A stretch of 33,964 nucleotides of DNA from an uncultured Lutibacter sp. (GTDB lineage Bacteria > Bacteroidota > Bacteroidia > Flavobacteriales > Flavobacteriaceae), in contig CAMZLV010000160.1 of the NCBI GenBank assembly GCA_947311835.1, forward strand, positions 1-33,964, in the 5' to 3' direction. The notes beneath the pieces were generated by a model that searched no databases, was not told the DNA's origin, and saw only the letters and a list, made by a program, of their open reading frames with translations. The position numbers and the translations under genes are program-made. Below, piece after piece: positions 1,128 through 33,964 of the stretch (position 1 is its first letter; every line of letters starts with the position of its first letter).

Positions 1128-1652
1128 TTAAATTAATAATGTCGCGTTAAAAGCATTTAAATAATGATGATTACTCGTTATAGACTTTATGATTTTTTTA
1201 TCCATTAGATTAACTGTTTCATATAACCAATTTTTCAAGTTTTTCATATCTTCAAATCGTTGATTTTTATACCTATTTTTTATGTATTGCCAAACCTGTT
1301 CACAAGGATTTAGTTCAGGAGCATATGGTGGAATTCTCAATAAGAAAATATTATCAGGTACTTCTATATTTTTAGTTGAATGAAAACCTGCATTGTCAAT
1401 AACAACAATTTTATATTCTTTTGGTTTATATTGAGAGAAGTGGTATAAATACGATTCAAATATTTTAGTATCTACACCGTTTATTTCCCAAACAAAACTG
1501 TTGCCATTAATTGGTGAATAACTTCCATAAAGGTAGGTTGTTTTAAATTTATGTTGATAATTCACAATTGGTTTTACACCTTTAGCAGTTAAACATTTTC
1601 CTAAATGCGTCATTAATCCAAACCTTGATTCGTCTTGAAAATATAAATTCAC
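1128..1652 (-). CDS. IS630 transposase, C-terminal DDE half (out of frame with the N-terminal half)
   Basis: MNLYFQDESRFGLMTHLGK...VVIDNAGFHSTKNIEVPDNIFLLRIPPYAPELNPCEQVWQYIKNRYKNQRF is the typical IS630 DDE domain. The frame is open upstream of the ATG as LPNTLNQIRLSLNKDKYNDV. Confidence 0.88.
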   Translation of the reverse strand: MNLYFQDESRFGLMTHLGKCLTAKGVKPIVNYQHKFKTTYLYGSYSPINGNSFVWEINGVDTKIFESYLYHFSQYKPKEYKIVVIDNAGFHSTKNIEVPDNIFLLRIPPYAPELNPCEQVWQYIKNRYKNQRFEDMKNLKNWLYETVNLMDKKIIKSITSNHHYLNAFNATLLI

Positions 1653-1701
1653 ATCGTTATACTTATCTTTATTTAGACTTAATCTAATCTGATTTAGCGT
1701 A

Positions 1702-2196
1702 TTAGGGAGTTTTTAAAAAAGCATTTACTGCTTTATCATCTTTTTTATAATGAGATTTTCTAGGTGATTTGAGTTTGGTTTTAAAATGCTTAATTAAATG
1801 GTATCTCAACAAATGATAATTGATTGAAACACCATATTCTGATTTCACCCAATCCACAGCATCCCAATATCCTAAAAATGGATTCTCACTTGAGTTGACT
1901 CGTTTTGATAAACCATCATGGATATCAGAAGTAATAATTCTTGACTTCAATTTTTTAGGAGCATCAGATAAAAGTTCTTGAATTCCTCCTTTTTGATATT
2001 TAATACTCCAACGTTCCTGAGTTCTTGTTGTTATGCCTAAATATTTAGCAAGTTCAACTCGAGTTTTAAAACGTTTTTCTTGTAATTCAATCAACCAAAT
2101 TATTCGCTTTTCAAATTTAAAAAAAGTTTGTTGTTTGCGTAGTGATTTGAGAGTTAAAATATCTTCTTTTATTATAAATTCTTTAGGTTTTGCCAT
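1702..2196 (-). CDS. IS630 transposase, N-terminal helix-turn-helix half
   Basis: ...KTRVELAKYLGITTRTQERWSIKYQKGGIQELLSDAPKKLKSRI...SEYGVSINYHLLRYHLIKHFKTKLKSPRKSHYKKD, typical IS630 HTH plus linker. Confidence 0.85.
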   Translation of the reverse strand: MAKPKEFIIKEDILTLKSLRKQQTFFKFEKRIIWLIELQEKRFKTRVELAKYLGITTRTQERWSIKYQKGGIQELLSDAPKKLKSRIITSDIHDGLSKRVNSSENPFLGYWDAVDWVKSEYGVSINYHLLRYHLIKHFKTKLKSPRKSHYKKDDKAVNAFLKTP

Positions 2197-20964: not shown

Positions 20965-21330
20965 ATGATATTAAATTTAATAAAAAAAATAATGTTGTTC
21001 GCCTTTTTTATAACAGCAACTACTATTATTGGTCAGGAGGATACAAAAATTAATGAAATTCTTACCAAAAAAATAGAGTATAATAAAACACATCGCACTG
21101 GAAAAGGATTTAAAATTCAATTGTATAATGGTGGTGAGTCTAGAGCGTATAACATTAAAAGTAATTTTGAAGCAACCTATGGGATTGTTGCTGTTATTGT
21201 ACCTGAACTTCCGGATTGGAAAGTACAAGTAGGAAATTATAAAACGCGCTTAGAAGCTGATAGAGCGTTGCTTCTTTTCAAAGAAAAATTTTCAGGTGCT
21301 ATTATTCTTGAAACTAAGATCTATTTATAG
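20965..21330 (+). CDS. SPOR-domain (septal peptidoglycan-binding) secreted protein
   Basis: Signal peptide; GFKIQLYNGGESRAYNIKSNFEATYG...WKVQVGNYKTRLEADRALLLFKEKFSGAIIL is a SPOR domain. Confidence 0.85.
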   Translation: MILNLIKKIMLFAFFITATTIIGQEDTKINEILTKKIEYNKTHRTGKGFKIQLYNGGESRAYNIKSNFEATYGIVAVIVPELPDWKVQVGNYKTRLEADRALLLFKEKFSGAIILETKIYL

Positions 21331-21522
21331 TTAGTTCGCGCCTTTATAAATTAAATTCATGTGATTTGCTTTTCTTTTATCTGTTGATATTGACTTCAAA
21401 ACACGTCAAATTCACTTCTAACAGGTAAATTAACACAACAATAACACTACAACTAAAAAATACGGTTACTTACCTATGTATATTTGCATAAGTATTTATA
21501 TTTTTAAGTTAATAGTAGGTAA

Positions 21523-21573
21523 GAGCCAAGAGCACTAACATTTTATAATGTTTTTGCGCTTGGCTTTTTTTTA
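21523..21573 (+). terminator. Rho-independent terminator hairpin (plus strand)
   Basis: AGCCAAGAGC-(acta-ACATTTTATAATGT-tttt)-GCGCTTGGCT followed by an 8-T tract; a T-tract is present only in plus orientation. Confidence 0.65.
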
Positions 21574-21656
21574 ATAAAAAACTATGCGATTCATTTAATC
21601 ACAAGACTTTAATATTGTTTTAAGCTACTACTTGATTGATGTCATATTCAAAAAAT

Positions 21657-22295
21657 TTATTTTTCAAAAACCAACTCAATAACATCACTAATCTTTAGAA
21701 TTGTTCCTTTTTTTGGTGTTGTAAGTTCAATTTTACGTTCGCCAATATCTTCTTCTTTAAGGTTTTTAATAATATAATCTAACCCAAATTCATTTAATTT
21801 ACTTTTAGCTTCTTCTATTGTTTTCCCTGTTAAATCAGGAACTAGTCTAAATTGTTCGGGAGGCGGAACAGGTTTTATCATAAATTCTAATTCGACACTA
21901 GAACGGTAATTAATATTGTATTTGTTCGAATTTGAAGCGTTTAAAGGCGTTGCGTAAAGTCTTGTTTTTGAAAGCCTTTGAGGTGCTACTTCTGAAGGTT
22001 TATTTGTAGTTATATTTCTAACTGAAGATTGAGATAAAGATAATGAAATCTTCATTTTAACCTTAGTTTCTGGCAATACATAAAAAGTGGGTTGATATCC
22101 AATTTCTCTAAGTTTCATCATTGTATTATTGGCTTCTTCACTTTTTGTAGAGTCGTCATATATTGCTAAAGTTTGCGCTAAAGAGCCTGCGTCTAAAGCT
22201 TTTTGAGCGTCCGCAACTCCTTCGCCTACAGACGCAATAAGGTCACCTAACGAACTAGATATGGAGTCTTGTAAATTATTAAAAGTATCTAACAT
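21657..22295 (-). CDS. Operon paralog-family protein with C-terminal PASTA-like domain
   Basis: VGEGVADAQKALDAGSLAQ...LREIGYQPTFYVLPETKVKMKISLSLSQSS...SSVELEFMIKPVPPPEQFR, then VPDLTGKTIEEAKSKLNEFGLDYIIKNLKEEDIGERKIELTTPKKGTILKISDVIELVFEK (PASTA-like). Confidence 0.78.
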   Translation of the reverse strand: MLDTFNNLQDSISSSLGDLIASVGEGVADAQKALDAGSLAQTLAIYDDSTKSEEANNTMMKLREIGYQPTFYVLPETKVKMKISLSLSQSSVRNITTNKPSEVAPQRLSKTRLYATPLNASNSNKYNINYRSSVELEFMIKPVPPPEQFRLVPDLTGKTIEEAKSKLNEFGLDYIIKNLKEEDIGERKIELTTPKKGTILKISDVIELVFEK

Positions 22296-22300
22296 AATAT

Positions 22301-23656
22301 TTAATTTTTATTTTCTTTGGCAAAAATTACTGTCACAATTTTTGAAGCATCAAATTCATCTCCTGCTTCGGGAAGTTGTTTAAAACTTTGACCAATTATT
22401 AAATTACTCGATTCTGAATTGATAGATTGATATATTGGATCTAATTTCAAATCATATTCCAAGAGTAATTTACGCACAGCTGTTTCAGTTAAACCGATAA
22501 CATTTGGTGTTAATTTGTTTTTGACAATTTTTGCAGGTTCTTTTGTTAAGTCTATTAGCACGTCACTTATTGCAGAACCATTAATTTTATTGGCTTTACT
22601 AATGTCTATTGGTTGAAATCGTATGCCATCTTCATCATGCTCTACAACGGTTTTTAAATTTAATTTAAAGCCTTCTAATTTATAACCAGAACTCACAGCA
22701 GAAGAATCGGCTATTTTTACATCTTTAATAATATTTGTATAGAGTTTATTTGCTGATATTGCTTTTGGAGTATATATTTTAGGCTCTAATTTTTTTTTAT
22801 CTAAAAGTAATTCTAAATCTAATTTATCCTTTTTTAATTCCGAAATTATTTTTTCTAATTCGAAGGTTTTACTTTTGTTTGAAGTGTTTTCTTTATTTAA
22901 ATTATCAATAATTTTATTATTTTTATTTATAGTTTTTTGTAATGATTCGTTTGTAAATGAAACTTGTTTTAAAGACTCTTTCGTTTTTGACAAATCAGTT
23001 GCTAATTGTAAATTTTTATTTTCAAGAACTCTTTTTTCGTTTTTAAGACCATCGAGTTCAACTTTTTTTAAAGATAATGATTTTACTGTTTTAAGTTTTT
23101 CTTTTGTCACATTTTCAAGCGATTTTTCAAGATCTTTAGCTTTTTTTTCAGAAACGAACCCTTTTTTTTCTAACATAGTAATATCTATTTTAGGAGTTAT
23201 TATTTCCTTAATAGTTTTATTAGAGATGACACTTGCTATTAAAATTGATTTTGCTGTTTTTAATTGTATCCAATTTTTTTTATCCAATAAGATTAAATTA
23301 CCAAAATCAAGATGGATAACGGTATTGTTTTCACTGCTTATTATACTCGTGTTGTAACTCAACACATAATTAATTTTAGTTTTAGTGTTTGTTTTAACAA
23401 TCCTAAACATAGGTAAACTTCCAGAATTGATACTAGTTTTAATATTTTTGGCAGTTTTATCTGTTCTTGCTATCTTTTCAGGAATTTTATAAGTAAGCAT
23501 TACTTTGCCGTCTTTAGACGTAGAAGGTTTTCCTAAAACAACCCATTGCATGGCATCTACAATAAAATATTGGATAGTTACCGAATAATTATTGGCAGGT
23601 TTATGGTTTTTATCTAAAATAGAAGCCGAAAATTGTATAGAACTAATTAGTGACAT
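22301..23656 (-). CDS. Ig-like N-terminus, long coiled coil, C-terminal PASTA-like domain
   Basis: MSLISSIQFSASILDKNHKPANNYSVTIQYFIVDAMQWVVLGKPSTSKDGKVMLTYKIPEK; heptad-rich about 170-310; C-terminus LTPNVIGLTETAVRKLLLEYDLKLD...GQSFKQLPEAGDEFDASKIVTVIFAKE. Confidence 0.75.
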   Translation of the reverse strand: MSLISSIQFSASILDKNHKPANNYSVTIQYFIVDAMQWVVLGKPSTSKDGKVMLTYKIPEKIARTDKTAKNIKTSINSGSLPMFRIVKTNTKTKINYVLSYNTSIISSENNTVIHLDFGNLILLDKKNWIQLKTAKSILIASVISNKTIKEIITPKIDITMLEKKGFVSEKKAKDLEKSLENVTKEKLKTVKSLSLKKVELDGLKNEKRVLENKNLQLATDLSKTKESLKQVSFTNESLQKTINKNNKIIDNLNKENTSNKSKTFELEKIISELKKDKLDLELLLDKKKLEPKIYTPKAISANKLYTNIIKDVKIADSSAVSSGYKLEGFKLNLKTVVEHDEDGIRFQPIDISKANKINGSAISDVLIDLTKEPAKIVKNKLTPNVIGLTETAVRKLLLEYDLKLDPIYQSINSESSNLIIGQSFKQLPEAGDEFDASKIVTVIFAKENKN

Positions 23657-23661
23657 AAGGT

Positions 23662-24333
23662 TTAATTTTTAGCTATTGAGATTGATTTGGTTACTGTTCC
23701 TGAGTTTAATTCGAAAATAAAAATATTACTATTATTATATGAGTTTTCAGGAAGTCTTATATTGAGAGTTACTCTTCCTTGTTCATCCGTTTTTTCTTCT
23801 GAAGTACTTAGTTTAGGAGGTTTTGATTCTGTTGTATTCAATTTATTGCTTTTCCCTTCATTATAATTGATTTCAATCATTGTGTTGGTTACAATTTCGC
23901 CAATACTATTTGTAAGTTCAATCGTTAGTTTAAACTCATAATAGTCATTATGTAATTCTGGTTTTGTACTAATTTGATAATTTAATATGAGTTGTGGAAT
24001 GCCTTCATTAGGTATTGTAGCGACAAATCTTCCTGAAATTGTACTTACAATTTGATTGTTACTCTTTGAAGAACTGGTCTTAGTTACAGGTCTGAATAAC
24101 ATAAAATTATTAAATCTAGAAGCGTTTGATTTGCTTTCTACAGCAGTTTCAAATTCAGATATAACTTGTAGATTAAAATCTAAATAAGGCAATGTGTACA
24201 TCGTGTTTAGTCGTCCAAATTCATCATAAGGAGGTAAACTACGCAGTTGATGTTGCGCTTGGTTTAAACTATCGGAAATACTTAATAATATTTCTTGCAA
24301 ACTTAATGCTACTGATTCTGATTGACTACTCAT
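23662..24333 (-). CDS. Divergent paralog-like N-terminus fused to an Ig-like/invasin-type beta-sandwich
   Basis: LQEILLSISDSLNQAQHQLRSLP...YTLPYLDFNLQVISEFE recalls the family module; GRVTLNIRLPENSYNNSNIFIFELNSGTVTKSISIAKN is Ig-like. Confidence 0.65.
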   Translation of the reverse strand: MSSQSESVALSLQEILLSISDSLNQAQHQLRSLPPYDEFGRLNTMYTLPYLDFNLQVISEFETAVESKSNASRFNNFMLFRPVTKTSSSKSNNQIVSTISGRFVATIPNEGIPQLILNYQISTKPELHNDYYEFKLTIELTNSIGEIVTNTMIEINYNEGKSNKLNTTESKPPKLSTSEEKTDEQGRVTLNIRLPENSYNNSNIFIFELNSGTVTKSISIAKN

Positions 24334-24345
24334 TATGGTTGTTTT

Positions 24346-25329
24346 TTATAAAAATTTATCTTTTAATCTTTCTAATCTACTTTGTTTTTGGCGCTCTTTT
24401 TTTTGCTCTTCTTTTCTTTCTAAGGCTTTAATTAGTGCTTTTTTTGCAATTTTTAACGCCTCTTTTTTTAACGCTTGTTTGTCTGCTATCTTTTGTTTTA
24501 TTAATGCTTCTCTCTTGTCAAACAATTTGGTGTCATTCACTATGTTTTTACTTTTTTCTGCAAGTTTTTCATACTTCTTTTTTTGAGATAAAATTTCCTG
24601 TCTTTTTTCTTTTATTCGTTCCCATTTTTCTTCGGCAAGATTAAGGTTGGATAATGCTTTTTTTACTTTTTTATCTGATTTTGGTTTTTCAACTATTTTC
24701 TCAAAACCAATTTTTTCGTTTTCTTTAAAAAAAGTTGATTTTTTAGCATTTTTTCGAATAAACTCTTCCTCTTTTGGTTTTGAGTTTGTAGTTATTTTCT
24801 TTTTTAATTTTTCACGTTTTTTTTCCCAATTAATCAAGTCAATTTTATTAGTGAGCCGTTTTTTAGCATTGGCATTCCTTTTATCTAATTTGTCTTGTAT
24901 ATTAATTTCTTTTTTAAACGGAACAATAGTTTTATTAGCAATAACTCTAACAAAATCGTTGCTTTTTTTAGTTTTAGACACACTGTTTTTTAAAACTTCT
25001 CTTTTTTTCTCCCAATTTTTTAATTCTAATTTTTTTGTAAAACTCTTTTTTAGTGTTTTTTCTCTGTATTGTAACCATTTCTGCTCTTTCTTTTTACGTT
25101 GTGCTGTTGATGGAATGCGATTATCAAACTTATTGGGAGTTTTATCTTTGTTTGTTAGTTTTTTTAGAGAATCTTCTAGTTGTTTTTGCTCTTTTAGCAA
25201 CTTGTTGAGATTTTCATCTTTACTACTCTTTTCTTTAACAATTACCATATTAGTTGATGTAGCAACACTTATAGAACTATCAGTATTTAGTTCATCATCT
25301 TCAATAAAATCTTTCCAATTTTTAGCCAT
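24346..25329 (-). CDS. Very basic Lys-rich coiled-coil protein with W-centred repeats
   Basis: Repeats EQKWLQYREKTLKK, LKNWEKKREVLKN, LINWEKKREKLKKK, EEKWERIKEKRQE. Lies in the tight operon. Confidence 0.75.
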   Translation of the reverse strand: MAKNWKDFIEDDELNTDSSISVATSTNMVIVKEKSSKDENLNKLLKEQKQLEDSLKKLTNKDKTPNKFDNRIPSTAQRKKKEQKWLQYREKTLKKSFTKKLELKNWEKKREVLKNSVSKTKKSNDFVRVIANKTIVPFKKEINIQDKLDKRNANAKKRLTNKIDLINWEKKREKLKKKITTNSKPKEEEFIRKNAKKSTFFKENEKIGFEKIVEKPKSDKKVKKALSNLNLAEEKWERIKEKRQEILSQKKKYEKLAEKSKNIVNDTKLFDKREALIKQKIADKQALKKEALKIAKKALIKALERKEEQKKERQKQSRLERLKDKFL

Positions 25330-25335
25330 TATCTT

Positions 25336-25794
25336 CTAATTTTCTTCTTTATTTTCTGCATCTTGCAATTCTCTTAAACGTTGCTCAAGAATTGGAGGTG
25401 ATGGTATGGTCACTAACTTTGTACGCATTAATGAGCTTCCTTCTGCTGAATATTGATATTTCTGAGAGTAACTTCCAGTAACAGAAGCACTAACAATACC
25501 TAAATAACTTGCGCCTACTGTTGCCTCAATTCCAACTTCTTTAGATTGCGTCATTGAAAACACCATTTTAATTTCTATTAAAGTATCTACATACTGATAA
25601 AACGTTGGCGTAAAACCAAGTGCTAAAAGACTGTATTCTTTTCCGCCCAAATCTACTTTAGTTGCTACCATTTCTTGAGCCAATTTCATAGAAACACGAT
25701 CTAAAGCATATTGTGCTTCAGCAATGCTTTTCCCAAGATTTTTTACCATCTCAGGAAAAGGAGCATTTAATAATTCTTTGGTAATCTGACTCAT
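25336..25794 (-). CDS. Operon paralog-family protein, minimal module (152 aa)
   Basis: NLGKSIAEAQYALDRVSMKLAQEM...LLALGFTPTFYQYVDTLIEIKMVFSMTQSKE...GSYSQKYQYSAEGSSLMRTKLVTIPSPPILEQRLREL. Confidence 0.85.
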   Translation of the reverse strand: MSQITKELLNAPFPEMVKNLGKSIAEAQYALDRVSMKLAQEMVATKVDLGGKEYSLLALGFTPTFYQYVDTLIEIKMVFSMTQSKEVGIEATVGASYLGIVSASVTGSYSQKYQYSAEGSSLMRTKLVTIPSPPILEQRLRELQDAENKEEN

Positions 25795-25814
25795 AACGCT
25801 TTGTAGTTTTTATT

Positions 25815-26609
25815 TTATGTAGTTGTTTCTGTTGCCGTTTTTTCTGCCATTGCAATTTCCATTTGCTGTTGTATGCGTTCTTCTAATATTGCTGGTGGCG
25901 GAATAGGCACTAACTTAGTACGTAGCAAACTTGAACCTTCGGCAGAATAACTGTATTTTTGTGAATACGATGCATTCACTTGAGTGGTACTAACATTGTA
26001 ATTTAAACTTCCTCCCAAAAAACCTCCTCTTAACTTAACTCCACCTGTTTTTCGTTTCCTTGAATACGAATAAGACGATGATCCAGATCTAGTATATTTA
26101 ATACTAATTTTAACTTCAATTATAGTATCTACAAATTGATAAAAAGTTGGCGAAAAACCGAGTTCTAACATAGATAAGCGCTGTGGTATAAATATTTCGG
26201 TAACTGCTGGTGAACTACTAGTTTTTAATTCAATTTTATCTGTTCCATCCTTTTTATATAAATCTGCATTAACTCCAGCAAATTCTGGAGTAGTGGTTTT
26301 TGGTTGATAAATTTGATTTTTTAACGCTTCATCATTTGTGGTATTATAAATGGTAACAGCATCACTCACAGAAACTTTTTCTTTACCAAAGAAAACACGA
26401 CTGTCTTTAAAGGTTATTTCTTGTTCTTTATCACCTTCTTCATTAATAAAATCTCGTGTTATTGTTTTGAGTCCGCCCATCATTTGAGCAACATCAATAG
26501 AGTTTTCGTCTAATCGCATTTGCGCATCTGCAATAGCAAATGCCATTTCGCGAATCATTTCGCCCATAGGCACATCAAGAAGTTCTTGACCAATTCTTGG
26601 ATTTCTCAT
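25815..26609 (-). CDS. Operon paralog-family protein with ~90-aa insertion in the module
   Basis: EMAFAIADAQMRLDENSIDVAQMMGG...[insert]...LSMLELGFSPTFYQFVDTIIEVKISIKYTRS...NASYSQKYSYSAEGSSLLRTKLVPIPPPAILEERIQQ. Confidence 0.85.
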   Translation of the reverse strand: MRNPRIGQELLDVPMGEMIREMAFAIADAQMRLDENSIDVAQMMGGLKTITRDFINEEGDKEQEITFKDSRVFFGKEKVSVSDAVTIYNTTNDEALKNQIYQPKTTTPEFAGVNADLYKKDGTDKIELKTSSSPAVTEIFIPQRLSMLELGFSPTFYQFVDTIIEVKISIKYTRSGSSSYSYSRKRKTGGVKLRGGFLGGSLNYNVSTTQVNASYSQKYSYSAEGSSLLRTKLVPIPPPAILEERIQQQMEIAMAEKTATETTT

Positions 26610-26632
26610 AATTTCAATTTTTAATGTTCAAT

Positions 26633-27136
26633 TTATTTTGTAATATTTATGGTTGATTTTAATATTTCTAAGTAAATATCTGGTGTTGGCAACGATACTA
26701 TTCGTGCTGCAATAGATGATGATGCTTCTGATGACATTTCAAATTTACGTGCATAATGACCAGAAATTGACAGTCCAGATATTCCAAAATTGGTACTTTT
26801 CCCTTCTTTTGTATCGTTACTTTCGCTTTTACTACTAGCAGTTTTATAGGCTGCTTTTATACCATACTCTTCTGATTCTGATATTGAAAACTCCATTTTA
26901 ATTTCGATTGTAGCTTCCGTAAACGCATAAAAAGTAGGGGCAAATCCTAGGCTTATTAGGTTGTGAGGTTTTCCTGCAACATCAATTTCTATAGTTGACA
27001 TTTCATTTGCTAGTTTTATAGAATTGGCATCTAAAGCAGCTTGCGCATTGGCTATTGACATTCCTAACTTTTCCAACATCATTGGCAAGGGCGCATTGGT
27101 TAAGGTTTGGATAATATTTGGTGCTTGGACTTTCAT
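26633..27136 (-). CDS. Operon paralog-family protein
   Basis: KLGMSIANAQAALDANSIKLANEM...LISLGFAPTFYAFTEATIEIKMEFSISESEE...GHYARKFEMSSEASSSIAARIVSLPTPDIYLEILK. Confidence 0.85.
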   Translation of the reverse strand: MKVQAPNIIQTLTNAPLPMMLEKLGMSIANAQAALDANSIKLANEMSTIEIDVAGKPHNLISLGFAPTFYAFTEATIEIKMEFSISESEEYGIKAAYKTASSKSESNDTKEGKSTNFGISGLSISGHYARKFEMSSEASSSIAARIVSLPTPDIYLEILKSTINITK

Positions 27137-27139
27137 CTT

Positions 27140-28909
27140 TTATGAATCACTTTTAGTATACAGTGTTTCTAAATACATTTTTAAGCCGTCTGGAGGTGGA
27201 AGTGAAATCATTCTTGCCGAAATGGCTGCATTTCCTTCTACTGACATTCCAAACTGTCTTGAATAACGTGCATCTATAGATCCACTCATTGCAAAACTAT
27301 TATCTCCACCAAATTTTTTTGTTGCTTGATCTAACCTACTTTGATCATTTTCAGTTTTACTTAAGTAAACTTCTGTTTGCTCTTTGTCAATTTCTTCTTC
27401 AGATTTACCATCAATTTTTATATTAATTTCTTTTTCTTCTTTTGAAGATACCAAATAAGTAATCTTTGAGTCTTCATGTAATAAGTAATAAATGTCGTTT
27501 ACTTTTTCAAAATAAAACTCATCATATTTTCCTTTTTGATTGGTGCCAAATTTGTTAGAACTAGTATCAATTATAGTAATCACTTTATTTCCATACTTAA
27601 ATTTAACATCATTTATATTTGAAGAAGTAGTGTCGTTCTCCTTAAATACAAAAGGATTCTTAGTATTACCATTAGCTCCTGTAGTTATTTCACCTCCATC
27701 AAAATATATAAAACTATTTGTACTATTTATTTCTATTTTAATTTTTCTTAGATTTGGATTTTTAGATTCATCAGTAGCTTCAGATTCGCCTTTTGATAGT
27801 ATTGTAAATTTATTATCACTATCGATATTTCCATATTCTTTCAGTAAATTTTTTACAGCGTTAGCTCTTTCTTTACCCAATTTTGAATTATAATCGGTTG
27901 CGCCACTTCCATCCGTGTAACCTGTAATGGTTATTTTTGTATCTGTACTGTTTTTTAGTAGCAAGGCTAATAACTTAAAATCATCCATATTTAAAGAAGG
28001 ATTATTTTGATTATGAGAATAGTCAAACTCAATGTTTTTTTTATCCCATCCAAAATAGAATTGCAAATCAATTTGGTTATTATCTCTATGTATTTTGTTG
28101 TTATTGATACCAATTACTATTCCTCCGTTTTTGGTTTTAGCATTGATTAGAGTTTTTGAAAAATCTGTTTCTTTTTTAAATGTATCAGGAGTGCTTTTTG
28201 CGTTTAATTTAATATTAATAGGTGAAGATGATGAAGGATATGTGCTGTCAAGCTCCAACAATGCTATTGTATTAGCATGTGTAGTTGGGATAGCAACAGT
28301 TATCAACCCATTTTCTTTTTCAATTTTTACTTCTGTTTGTGATTGGTTTTCCACAACTGTTTGATCATCTACAACGCTTTCTGCACGTATGTTTTGTGTT
28401 TCATCTCGCAAATGCTCTTCAGCTTTTAGTATTTTTGAAAGTGAGCCTTCTTCTTTGTGAATTTCAAAGGTTTTATTATGAATTTCTACATTCTTTTTTT
28501 TACTCGTTTTTAAAGCAATTATTTTTCTTGACTTTGCCTCGCTACTTTTAGATTCTTGTTTATTCTCTTCTAATCGCTTAAAATAGTCTTTGTCAAAATT
28601 TGAATTCTTTTTATATTCACCTGCTAAACTTAAAGCAATATCTATAGAATTACTCAACGCCATTTTTAAGTTTAGTGATGCACTAACATCGGCATATTCA
28701 AAAGCATAAAATGCAGGCTGAAAACCGAGTTCTAACAATGATTTTCCTGCGATTTCTAGTTCAGTTAAACGGCTAATCTGTCTTATTGAATTATCGTCTA
28801 ATTTTTCTTGTGCTTCGGCAATACCCAAAGCAAGTGATGTTATAATACTTGTCACATCTACTTGTTGTAATATTTGCGCACCTTCATTAAATTTTTGTAC
28901 TCCTCCCAT
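27140..28909 (-). CDS. Operon paralog-family protein with an OmpA-like domain inserted inside the module
   Basis: N-terminus SLALGIAEAQEKLDDNSIRQ...LLELGFQPAFYAFEYADVSASLNLKMALSNS; OmpA-like FDYSHNQNNPSLNMDDFKLLALLLKNSTDTKITITGYTDGSGATDYNSKLGKERANAVKNLL...RKIKIEI at about 27725-28033; C-terminus GSIDARYSRQFGMSVEGNAAISARMISLPPPDGLKMYLE. Confidence 0.85.
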   Translation of the reverse strand: MGGVQKFNEGAQILQQVDVTSIITSLALGIAEAQEKLDDNSIRQISRLTELEIAGKSLLELGFQPAFYAFEYADVSASLNLKMALSNSIDIALSLAGEYKKNSNFDKDYFKRLEENKQESKSSEAKSRKIIALKTSKKKNVEIHNKTFEIHKEEGSLSKILKAEEHLRDETQNIRAESVVDDQTVVENQSQTEVKIEKENGLITVAIPTTHANTIALLELDSTYPSSSSPINIKLNAKSTPDTFKKETDFSKTLINAKTKNGGIVIGINNNKIHRDNNQIDLQFYFGWDKKNIEFDYSHNQNNPSLNMDDFKLLALLLKNSTDTKITITGYTDGSGATDYNSKLGKERANAVKNLLKEYGNIDSDNKFTILSKGESEATDESKNPNLRKIKIEINSTNSFIYFDGGEITTGANGNTKNPFVFKENDTTSSNINDVKFKYGNKVITIIDTSSNKFGTNQKGKYDEFYFEKVNDIYYLLHEDSKITYLVSSKEEKEINIKIDGKSEEEIDKEQTEVYLSKTENDQSRLDQATKKFGGDNSFAMSGSIDARYSRQFGMSVEGNAAISARMISLPPPDGLKMYLETLYTKSDS

Positions 28910-28931
28910 AGTTTTATTTTTTTTAGCGTTT

Positions 28932-29486
28932 TTATATTGATTTCATTTCTGATGGTAATTCTACTGCAATTTCAGGATTAACAAGGTCTTTTCGAATTAT
29001 AAAATAGTTGAATTTTTTTTGTACAGATTCAACTTGTCTTTTACTAATTTGATATCCTTTTTGAACCCATTTTAGCAATTCATCAGTAATTGGTTGTTTT
29101 CCTTTTCCTGCTTTATGTTGCGCTAATTCGAGTAATTGCAATGCAATTTGGTTGTTTCCTTTTAATAGATATTGAATGGCTTTTTTTTCAAAAATTCGCG
29201 CATAATGCCTATCTATAAACGGATTTTTACTGTTTTTGGCATCTAAAAAAGTAACATAGCGTTCGCAATACGAAATAACATCATCATAAGATCCTGATTT
29301 TTCAAGAGTTTCCATTACACATTGCGTATAATGTTGAAAAAACAGTTCGCTTCCTTTTTCTTTTTGCATTATTTTAAGAGCTTCGCCAAAGTGACGCAAT
29401 GCTTCTTTGTAATTACCTTCTAAACAAAGTAGTTTACCTTTTTCGGCAATTCTTAAATGTAACATTTGTGTTTTTTTAGTTTTCAT
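28932..29486 (-). CDS. TPR-like helical-repeat protein
   Basis: AEKGKLLCLEGNYKEALRHFGEALKIMQKEKGSELFFQHYTQCVMETLEKSGSYDDVISYCERYV. ATG at 29486 (MKTKKTQ) overlaps the upstream stop (AATGAAAACTAA), preferred over the longer MQVI start. Confidence 0.78.
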   Translation of the reverse strand: MKTKKTQMLHLRIAEKGKLLCLEGNYKEALRHFGEALKIMQKEKGSELFFQHYTQCVMETLEKSGSYDDVISYCERYVTFLDAKNSKNPFIDRHYARIFEKKAIQYLLKGNNQIALQLLELAQHKAGKGKQPITDELLKWVQKGYQISKRQVESVQKKFNYFIIRKDLVNPEIAVELPSEMKSI

Positions 29487-30570
29487 TATTACTTGCATCT
29501 TCTTTTAGTTTAGCGTTTGTACCAATTGTTTTTAATTGCGCTACAGCATAGCGCATTAACAAATGATGTTGAGGTTTGTTTGATATCCATTTGTTTTTAT
29601 TTGTAGGAATTTCATTTTCGTTAAAAAAATTGGTTAAGATTGATCTTGTCTTTTTCAAATCGGTAATTTTGGTAATTACTAAATCGTGTTTTTTAGGAAT
29701 AATTACTTCTGAATGACAAGTAAGTCCAACATTAGCATATTTTTTTAAGGTTTTTTCGGTTTCTTTTTTTGATAAAGATTCGTGGAGTTGTATCGGTAAG
29801 TTTTCCAATACTTTGTCCAATATTTGTTTAGGAATTCCTATTTGTTTTACAAGAAATTCTCTTTGAAACCTATCATTCTTATCAATTTTTGTTAAAATTA
29901 TTTCAAAGCGTTGATAACTTTGATTAACAATTTTGATGTTCTTTTTTGATTTATATTTTCTCCATATTTCTTGACTAGTTTTAAAATCTAAATTCTCTAT
30001 AACATATTCTAAACCTGCTTTTTTAATAGAAAAACTATTTTTAAAAACATGTTTTAAATCATCGATAATACTTGATTGTTTAATTGGGAAATAGATAGCA
30101 TATAAATCCTTTTTTGGGTTGGTAATAGTAACTTTTGCATCTAATCTTTTTGATAGTGCTTTCAGCGTTGCTTTTGAAACACCTCCAATTACAATACTCG
30201 GTTCTTGCATCAGTATATTTAATGCTTCTTTTTGTTCGCATCCTAAAAACTCACTCAGTTGTTTAACTACTTTAGGTAACTTTATAGGATTATCTATATA
30301 TACACTTGCTTCATATAAATTGTTATTTGTTGGAAGTGATACCTTTGAGTCTTGTACCTTTACAATTAGTCCTAATTTATTTAAGGTTGTTTTTGCTTTT
30401 ACGGCAAGCTGCTCATCTACTTTATGAAATAGTACAGAAGGTGTATTATAAAGTAGTTTTAATACGATTTCTTGCGGTATTTTAAACGCTTCAGCAAGCA
30501 AAACTGAGGCTGAAGGGTTTGCTGTTCCGATAGATTTGATAATAACTGTATTGTTAAGTGTTGCATTCAT
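29476..30570 (-). CDS. Protein of about five tandem L7/L12-CTD/ClpS-like alpha/beta domains
   Basis: TVIIKSIGTANPSASVLLAEAFKIPQEIVLKLLYNTPSVLFHKVDEQLAVKAKTTLNKLGLIVKVQ and EALNILMQEPSIVIGGVSKATLKALSKRLDAKVTIT follow the L7/L12 C-terminal-domain pattern; further copies near residues 156-216, 220-290, 295-357. Confidence 0.7.
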   Translation of the reverse strand: MNATLNNTVIIKSIGTANPSASVLLAEAFKIPQEIVLKLLYNTPSVLFHKVDEQLAVKAKTTLNKLGLIVKVQDSKVSLPTNNNLYEASVYIDNPIKLPKVVKQLSEFLGCEQKEALNILMQEPSIVIGGVSKATLKALSKRLDAKVTITNPKKDLYAIYFPIKQSSIIDDLKHVFKNSFSIKKAGLEYVIENLDFKTSQEIWRKYKSKKNIKIVNQSYQRFEIILTKIDKNDRFQREFLVKQIGIPKQILDKVLENLPIQLHESLSKKETEKTLKKYANVGLTCHSEVIIPKKHDLVITKITDLKKTRSILTNFFNENEIPTNKNKWISNKPQHHLLMRYAVAQLKTIGTNAKLKEDASNNEN

Positions 30571-30582
30571 AGTTTCTTTTTT

Positions 30583-31257
30583 TTAATCTTGCTTTTGTAG
30601 TATTTCTTCAAGTTTTTCTCTTGATTCACTTCCATAAATACCATCTATTGTAATATGATTATCGCGTTGAAATTTTTGAAGTGCTTTTTCAGTATTTCCA
30701 CCGAAAATACCGTCAGCACTACCATTTAAGTAATTTAAATCTATAAGAATTTGTTGCAGTAATTTTACTCTAGAATTGCTTTCGCCTTTTCTTAAATATC
30801 CTGTTGGAATAGTTGTCGTTATTTCTTTCGTAGTATCAATTTTTCTAAAAGATAGTACCTTATATTTAGGATATAAAGTAATGTTTACTTCATCATTTTG
30901 ATTTCCTCCAATGCAGTAGACAGATTTGCCGCTTTTTGAATATCCAAGAAAAAAACCTACATGACCTAACGAGCCATTTTCACTCCCTCTCCACATTACT
31001 ATAATATCTCCTGGAGACGGTGAATCTGTTTCATTGCCAATTTGCAACCAACTTCTTGCCATTGCACTATTTGACCTTGGCAAACCTGCTTGTAGGGCAA
31101 CCCAATTTGCAAAAATACTACACCATGCAACTTCATCAGTTCCAAAGTCTAGACCTGTCATTTGTTGGTATTCTAATATCCGTTCATTATGGATACTTCC
31201 TGAAATTTCTTTTTGTCCGAGCTCGCCTAAAGCAATTTTTAAAGTAGTTGGTTTCAT
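30583..31257 (-). CDS. TIGR02594-type (CHAP/NlpC-P60-like) peptidoglycan hydrolase with C-terminal PG_binding_1 domain
   Basis: VAWCSIFANWVALQAGLPRSNSAMARSWLQIG...SPGDIIVMWRGSENGSLGHVGFFLGY...VYCIGGNQNDEVNI; LRKGESNSRVKLLQQILIDLNYLNGSADGIFGGNTEKALQKFQRDN. Start set at internal Met (MKPTTLKIALGELGQKEI), 18 nt downstream of a -7 element. Confidence 0.87.
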   Translation of the reverse strand: MKPTTLKIALGELGQKEISGSIHNERILEYQQMTGLDFGTDEVAWCSIFANWVALQAGLPRSNSAMARSWLQIGNETDSPSPGDIIVMWRGSENGSLGHVGFFLGYSKSGKSVYCIGGNQNDEVNITLYPKYKVLSFRKIDTTKEITTTIPTGYLRKGESNSRVKLLQQILIDLNYLNGSADGIFGGNTEKALQKFQRDNHITIDGIYGSESREKLEEILQKQD

Positions 31258-31274
31258 AACTTGCAATTTTAATT

Positions 31275-31282
31275 CAAAGTTA
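31275..31282 (-). promoter_or_regulatory. Candidate promoter -7 element of the 10-gene operon
   Basis: CAAAGTTA on plus = TAACTTTG on minus (TAnnTTTG), with TTG 22 nt upstream (TTGTGACTTTTAGAATAAGAGGAAGTAACTTTG). Confidence 0.6.
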
Positions 31283-31351
31283 CTTCCTCTTATTCTAAAA
31301 GTCACAAGGTAAAAAACCCTTTTTATCAAGGTGAAATCACCCTTTTTGACA

Positions 31352-31387
31352 CAAAAAAAAGCGTTCAGAATTTCTGAACGCTTTTAA
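31352..31387 (-). terminator. Terminator of infB
   Basis: AAAAGCGTTCAGAAATTCTGAACGCTTTTTTTT on minus. Confidence 0.85.
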
Positions 31388-31441
31388 AATTATAACTTAA
31401 GCCACTAAATCGATATCGAATATTTATAATATGCCAATGAC

Positions 31442-33964
<2,523 letters not shown>

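Follow-up and report, generated by a model that had tools for sequence, protein, structure and literature searches.

What is built from a run of small, repeatedly duplicated proteins that carry cell-wall-binding domains and belong to no characterised family? The genes in question lie on contig CAMZLV010000160.1 of an uncultured Lutibacter sp. (a Flavobacteriaceae genome, 84% complete), and the window analysed here is that whole contig, 33,964 nucleotides long. Positions 31257–21657 of the minus strand hold eleven open, collinear genes, the hydrolase gene g1 followed by g2–g11. We found that g2–g11 recur as an intact ten-gene cassette in at least seven phyla, and that g4–g7 and g11 are, by sequence comparison, paralogs sharing one module. 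The initial annotation, made from the sequence alone, was right about the common strand but counted ten genes, while itself naming eleven products. The genes and their surroundings are as follows.

31357–31385, minus strand: infB intrinsic terminator, lying upstream of the eleven genes (consensus scan).
About 21316–31443: insert of ~10.1 kb between infB and a SPOR gene (comparison with two genomes of the same genus).
30583–31257, minus strand: g1, leaderless peptidoglycan hydrolase, TIGR02594/CHAP (C46, H99) with a C-terminal PG_binding_1 domain; exchangeable partner of the cassette.
29476–30570, minus strand: g2, ~350 aa, repeated L7/L12 C-terminal-like domains; first gene of the core in every case.
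28932–29486, minus strand: g3, TPR-like, strongly conserved (ratio of nonsynonymous to synonymous substitutions, dN/dS, 0.04–0.17).
27140–28909, minus strand: g4, module paralog interrupted by a large insert with an OmpA-like domain; on either side of this insert, the N and C halves each align to g5/g7.
26633–27136, minus strand: g5, module paralog.
25815–26609, minus strand: g6, module paralog containing an insert of ~100 aa that diverges fast.
25336–25794, minus strand: g7, module paralog in its minimal form, with a predicted order of alpha – beta hairpin – alpha.
24346–25329, minus strand: g8, very basic coiled-coil protein (isoelectric point 10.1); position kept in most loci.
23662–24333, minus strand: g9, putative degenerate module with an Ig-like domain; profile homology to g11 (96%).
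22301–23656, minus strand: g10, N-terminal Ig-like domain, coiled coil, module-like hairpin and PASTA (97% to g11).
21657–22295, minus strand: g11, module paralog with a C-terminal PASTA domain.

The gaps from g1 to g11 measure 12, −11, 22, 3, 23, 20, 6, 12, 5 and 5 nt, in agreement with the gaps of 3–23 nt and the single 11-nt overlap first described. This overlap, between g2 and g3, applies to the g3 start at ATG 29486; with the most upstream ATG (29498) it is 23 nt. The infB terminator stands just upstream at 31385–31357, where it had been placed. The motif TAACTTTG, taken as a promoter at the head of the operon, is indeed present just 5' of g1, but it is weak evidence of a promoter because it has just six fixed bases and lies in AT-rich DNA.

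The conservation of the cassette was investigated by a scan of 84,980 species genomes, which found 156 relatives and returned 79 loci. Gene order was counted in 81 loci with one profile per gene, and GC-rich loci were called from profile matches. In 57 of them g2–g11 are complete and identical in order and orientation; ten more keep the collinear order but lack members, mostly where a contig ends, and in the remaining 14, which are variants, members are split, duplicated or replaced. A lack of neighbourhood conservation, which the initial annotation had named as a possible refutation, was therefore not what we observed. Nearly all intergenic gaps between neighbouring genes (692/716) fall within −60 to 100 nt, and the flanking genes vary between loci except among close relatives. 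Every core gene tested is under purifying selection, with dN/dS at 0–0.36 across the ten genes in six close pairs; the shared order and this constraint put the arrangement well beyond coincidence. The ten-gene order is intact across phyla; therefore, a machine of cooperating parts is implied. Conserved multi-gene systems without any described member are rare.

The cassette occurs in Bacteroidota, Pseudomonadota (Alpha-, Beta- and Gammaproteobacteria), Myxococcota, Gemmatimonadota, Latescibacterota, Verrucomicrobiota and Balneolota, and relatives are rare within the family of the host (4 of 400 sampled genomes). The tree of g6 largely tracks the phyla, with more changes than the minimum; Halomonas groups with metagenome-assembled genomes (MAGs) of Gemmatimonadota and Latescibacterota. 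Together with the patchy presence, this tree suggests horizontal transfer, to which binning errors could contribute. One record, CP034120.1 (Glaciecola amylolytica THG-3.7), seems mislabelled or contaminated: in cassette and flanks alike it matches Fluviicola (Bacteroidota).

Two congeneric genomes lack the cassette, and in them infB and the SPOR gene are separated by ~70 bp. The homologous flanks stop at ~31443 and ~21316, and the extra DNA between them is exactly g1–g11. Therefore, g1 was gained, or lost, along with the ten-gene core. In this genome g1 is part of the same insert; the mobile conserved core is g2–g11.

Profile–profile comparison (hhalign) firmly groups g5/g7, g6, g4 and g11, and the two halves of g4 that flank the OmpA insert align at 99.6% and 98.0%. 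Within the genome, every paralog match falls inside the single operon g1–g11. The module of g9 aligns with g11 at 96% and with g5/g7 at 82%. The corresponding value for g10 against g11 is 97% over the hairpin and PASTA, a match owed partly to the common PASTA domain. Thus g9 and g10 are probably also module paralogs, which would give seven of the ten core proteins a module. The initial proposal, one unit made of copies of the same module, holds, with probably seven carriers instead of five.

The AlphaFold2 model of g7 (mean predicted local distance difference test, pLDDT, 70) runs from a long helix through a beta hairpin, whose loop is disordered, to a C-terminal helix; that of g11 (pLDDT 74) has a helix, a long hairpin (77–89/128–140) and a confident PASTA domain. 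A single helix with a hairpin has no core of its own and may be completed by packing with other subunits. A membrane pore formed by amphipathic hairpins was also considered. The alpha–beta–beta–alpha order may resemble that of GvpA. A Foldseek search of the g7 model found no match in the PDB. Separately, the g7 model (window 25336–25794) resembles an unnamed viral protein in BFVD, A0A516MP19 (E 9e-5, TM-score 0.52, 16% identity).

The domain calls of the initial annotation were tested by profile searches. The OmpA-like domain of g4 scores 1.6e-11 (44.9 bits against a Pfam cut-off of 27.2) and is kept in 26 of 29 g4 homologues. PASTA is matched in g11 at 4e-9 and kept in 27 of 32 homologues, and its predicted fold matches the PknB PASTA domain with a Foldseek probability of 1.0. 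The PASTA match of g10 (3e-4) is under the Pfam cut-off in the window sequence, and all 30 g10 homologues scanned match. The L7/L12 C-terminal domain of g2 (7e-5) is found in 22 of 49 homologues, and g3 matches TPR at 1e-4. From their families, the OmpA and PASTA domains would be expected to bind peptidoglycan here. A g10 homologue in a deltaproteobacterial MAG (L113:12784-14322) begins with a region that looks LamG-like by eye, and the Pfam scan gave a Laminin_G_3 match (7.9e-18) for one g10 homologue.

The hydrolase g1 matches TIGR02594 at 2e-29 (102.6 bits, NCBIfam cut-off 70.55), with the Cys/His pair C46 and H99, and PG_binding_1 at 2e-15. At nine loci the outermost neighbour on the same strand is a wall hydrolase without a leader, and four non-homologous catalytic families are represented.

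CHAP: window and L117; cassette-edge hydrolase.
Amidase_2: L057, L073 (two copies), L094, L096 and L111; cassette-edge hydrolase.
GH108 lysozyme: L081 (Pleionea), directly downstream of the cassette and followed by the holin GTA_holin_3TM.
M15 peptidase with PG_binding_1: L107; cassette-edge hydrolase.

The hydrolase lies within 30 nt of the cassette at eight of the nine loci, L107 being the exception. Homologues of these edge hydrolases occur nowhere else in the flanks (phmmer, 1.64 Mb of loci) except for a g1 relative at L142, in a scan that detects only homologues of hydrolases already found and has no genome-wide background. A Pfam scan of 60 flank-adjacent genes, mostly immediate neighbours and from both strands, gave Amidase_2 (5) and SH3_3 (4) most often, and PG_binding_1 (3) ties for third. 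The hydrolase is exchangeable, with unrelated enzymes, or none adjacent, at other loci. The linkage of wall-binding domains to a wall-cutting enzyme, as first proposed, stands. Practically no signal peptides or transmembrane segments were found in the core subunits or the neighbouring hydrolases by a crude hydropathy scan.

Some parts of the cassette evolve much faster than the rest. In g6, residues ~85–185 share 20–60% identity between sister species, whereas the remainder shares ~90–100% (L052, L053, L044, L045, L061 and L064); the insert of g4 likewise diverges much faster than the remainder of g4. Exposed recognition parts behave in this way, and the divergence of the g6 insert fits such an element.

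As first suggested, the cassette corresponds to no described system in the collections and papers searched. The paralogs match no family in Pfam, NCBIfam, PHROGs, PADLOC or the PDB sequences, so that the other refutation named in the initial annotation, their assignment to a characterised family, did not occur either; specifically, PHROGs gave no match for the core proteins scanned (all but g3), and PADLOC gave only trace coiled-coil and PASTA matches and no defence-system core protein. The cassette is not matched in 50,697 phage records or in viral contigs. No description of it was found in the papers searched, a coverage that excludes subscription papers and preprints. Sheath, TssC, tube and baseplate genes are absent from its vicinity. 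Neither TssC nor sheath was found in the host genome (completeness 84%) or in G348, a complete genome; an accessory role in a contractile machine is therefore excluded. Dependence on a T6SS (type VI secretion system) or another contractile machine is ruled out by the cassette genomes without either component (6 of 19).

Three related genomes from another Bacteroidota-level family, and one Sphaerotilus plasmid, carry reduced five-gene variants.

L139:2293-5658, L140:1202-4935 and L146:11640-14419: reduced variants in which two g7-like paralogs are accompanied by a small module protein, a coiled coil and a small protein rich in strands.

A phage or plasmid origin of the cassette was rejected; no phage matched, and the lone plasmid carries this reduced form. 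Elsewhere in the window (1128–2196, minus strand), two neighbouring open reading frames resemble by eye a split IS630-type transposase.

The reading that we favour, at a probability of about 0.4, is that the cassette encodes a cytoplasmically built hetero-oligomer that is released by lysis, binds the cell wall and is used, with an exchangeable hydrolase, against neighbouring cells. The g2–g11 proteins would form a horizontally acquired, self-contained machine in which the seven module variants (g4–g7, g11 and probably g9 and g10) pack side by side; such packing is probable because the module alone cannot fold as a globular domain. The L7/L12-like repeats of g2, the TPR protein g3 and the basic coiled coil g8 may serve as assembly or scaffold parts, and three subunits would display peptidoglycan-binding domains (OmpA on g4, PASTA on g10 and g11). 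Because no part has an export signal, assembly would be cytoplasmic, and peptidoglycan would be reached only on cell lysis, or from inside a lysing cell. The edge hydrolase, or the holin/lysozyme pair, would cut the wall as cargo, release enzyme or suicide effector. The structural part of this reading is well supported; we infer the oligomerisation, the release by lysis and the target, and the role may be that of a weapon or of suicide or defence. Somewhat more tentatively, the cassette may represent a new kind of nanomachine, not derived from phage and spread horizontally through at least seven phyla, in which up to seven paralogous helix/beta-hairpin subunits form a lysis-released hetero-oligomer with OmpA/PASTA peptidoglycan binding and an exchangeable hydrolase.

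Several observations weigh against the wall-binding particle. Most loci have no adjacent hydrolase, and lysis would therefore have to derive from elsewhere in the genome. Neither a phage structural gene nor a general phage context is linked to the loci, and no immunity gene, which a kin-directed weapon might need, was recognised. The module models are of only modest confidence (pLDDT 70 and 74), with hairpin loops below 50. If the reading is true, the wall-binding particle released by lysis would found a class of bacterial weapons or release devices that does not depend on phage tails; should the cassette instead be a suicide system, it would be a new defence architecture. In both cases the exchangeable hydrolase and the fast-changing g6 insert give specific, testable predictions, and Caulobacter, Marinobacterium and Kordia are culturable hosts.

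The most probable alternative, a serious one though less likely than the favoured reading, is an intracellular conflict (abortive-infection) system in which DUF2589/Trypco2-like modules act as adaptors or sensors, while killing of the infected cell from within falls to the hydrolase or holin/lysozyme. It draws on a weak hhalign match of the module to DUF2589 (67.5% over 71 columns) and on weak matches of one homologue each to Trypco2 (PF19631, E 0.03) and Pepco (E 0.1), as well as on the rare and patchy distribution. However, these remote homologies are under significance; the Pfam model of DUF2589 (PF11655) matches neither the cassette in four cassette genomes nor 67 g5/g7-type homologues, and no trypsin gene was recognised beside the loci. 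The cassette also has no NTPase, sensor or nucleotide-signal gene, the matches in PADLOC amount to traces, and conserved wall-binding domains would be odd in a purely cytoplasmic sensor.

A scaffold in the cell's own envelope, which would position a wall hydrolase to serve growth, division or the tethering of the outer membrane, is rather improbable. It would account for the peptidoglycan-binding domains and the hydrolase linkage, but residence there is less likely because the subunits have no export signals; the hydrolases are leaderless too, and the sporadic distribution spans very different cell types. Largely refuted and very improbable is membership in a phage tail, a tailocin, an extracellular contractile injection system or a T6SS: g1 matches phrog_1259 (baseplate hub/tail lysozyme, 2e-26), TIGR02594 proteins are T6SS effectors in Stenotrophomonas (PMC13055248) and the viral model resembles g7, but the negative PHROGs, phage, sheath and TssC searches and the lack of an adjacent structural phage gene argue against it.

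Compared with known systems, the hetero-oligomer that we favour resembles tailocins and extracellular contractile injection systems in working only (lysis-released leaderless proteins, wall hydrolases and peptidoglycan-binding parts); it lacks sheath, tube, baseplate and tail genes and is built from another subunit family. Known PASTA and OmpA proteins share domains with the cassette, but they are exported kinases, penicillin-binding proteins or lipoproteins, whereas the cassette proteins are leaderless and fused to a new module. Trypco-adaptor conflict systems, and iSTAND systems with OmpA and PASTA domains, have been described (eLife 2020, PMC7159879), which also speaks for the conflict-system alternative. 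Like the cassette, the Trypco/VMAP and iSTAND systems combine small adaptor domains with exchangeable hydrolytic effectors; the cassette differs in having no vWA, MoxR, STAND NTPase or signalling enzyme. The DUF2589 mini-clusters of other Bacteroidota are likewise small multi-gene clusters, in which a protein with an N-terminal helix, beta strands and a P.G...L C-terminus is joined by a second related protein, and some adjoin a TIGR02594/CHAP hydrolase or a subtilase, a point that also favours the conflict-system alternative. However, they have three genes instead of ten and no OmpA, PASTA, L7/L12-like or TPR partner. True DUF2589 clusters with a second helix/strand protein were seen at L142:4578-7414, L143:5076-8522, L141:7613-10318, L038:11662-13155 and L039:7269-9197; the cluster at L142 adjoins the TIGR02594/CHAP relative of g1, and that at L143 adjoins the subtilase. 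These clusters are possibly a simpler relative of the cassette.

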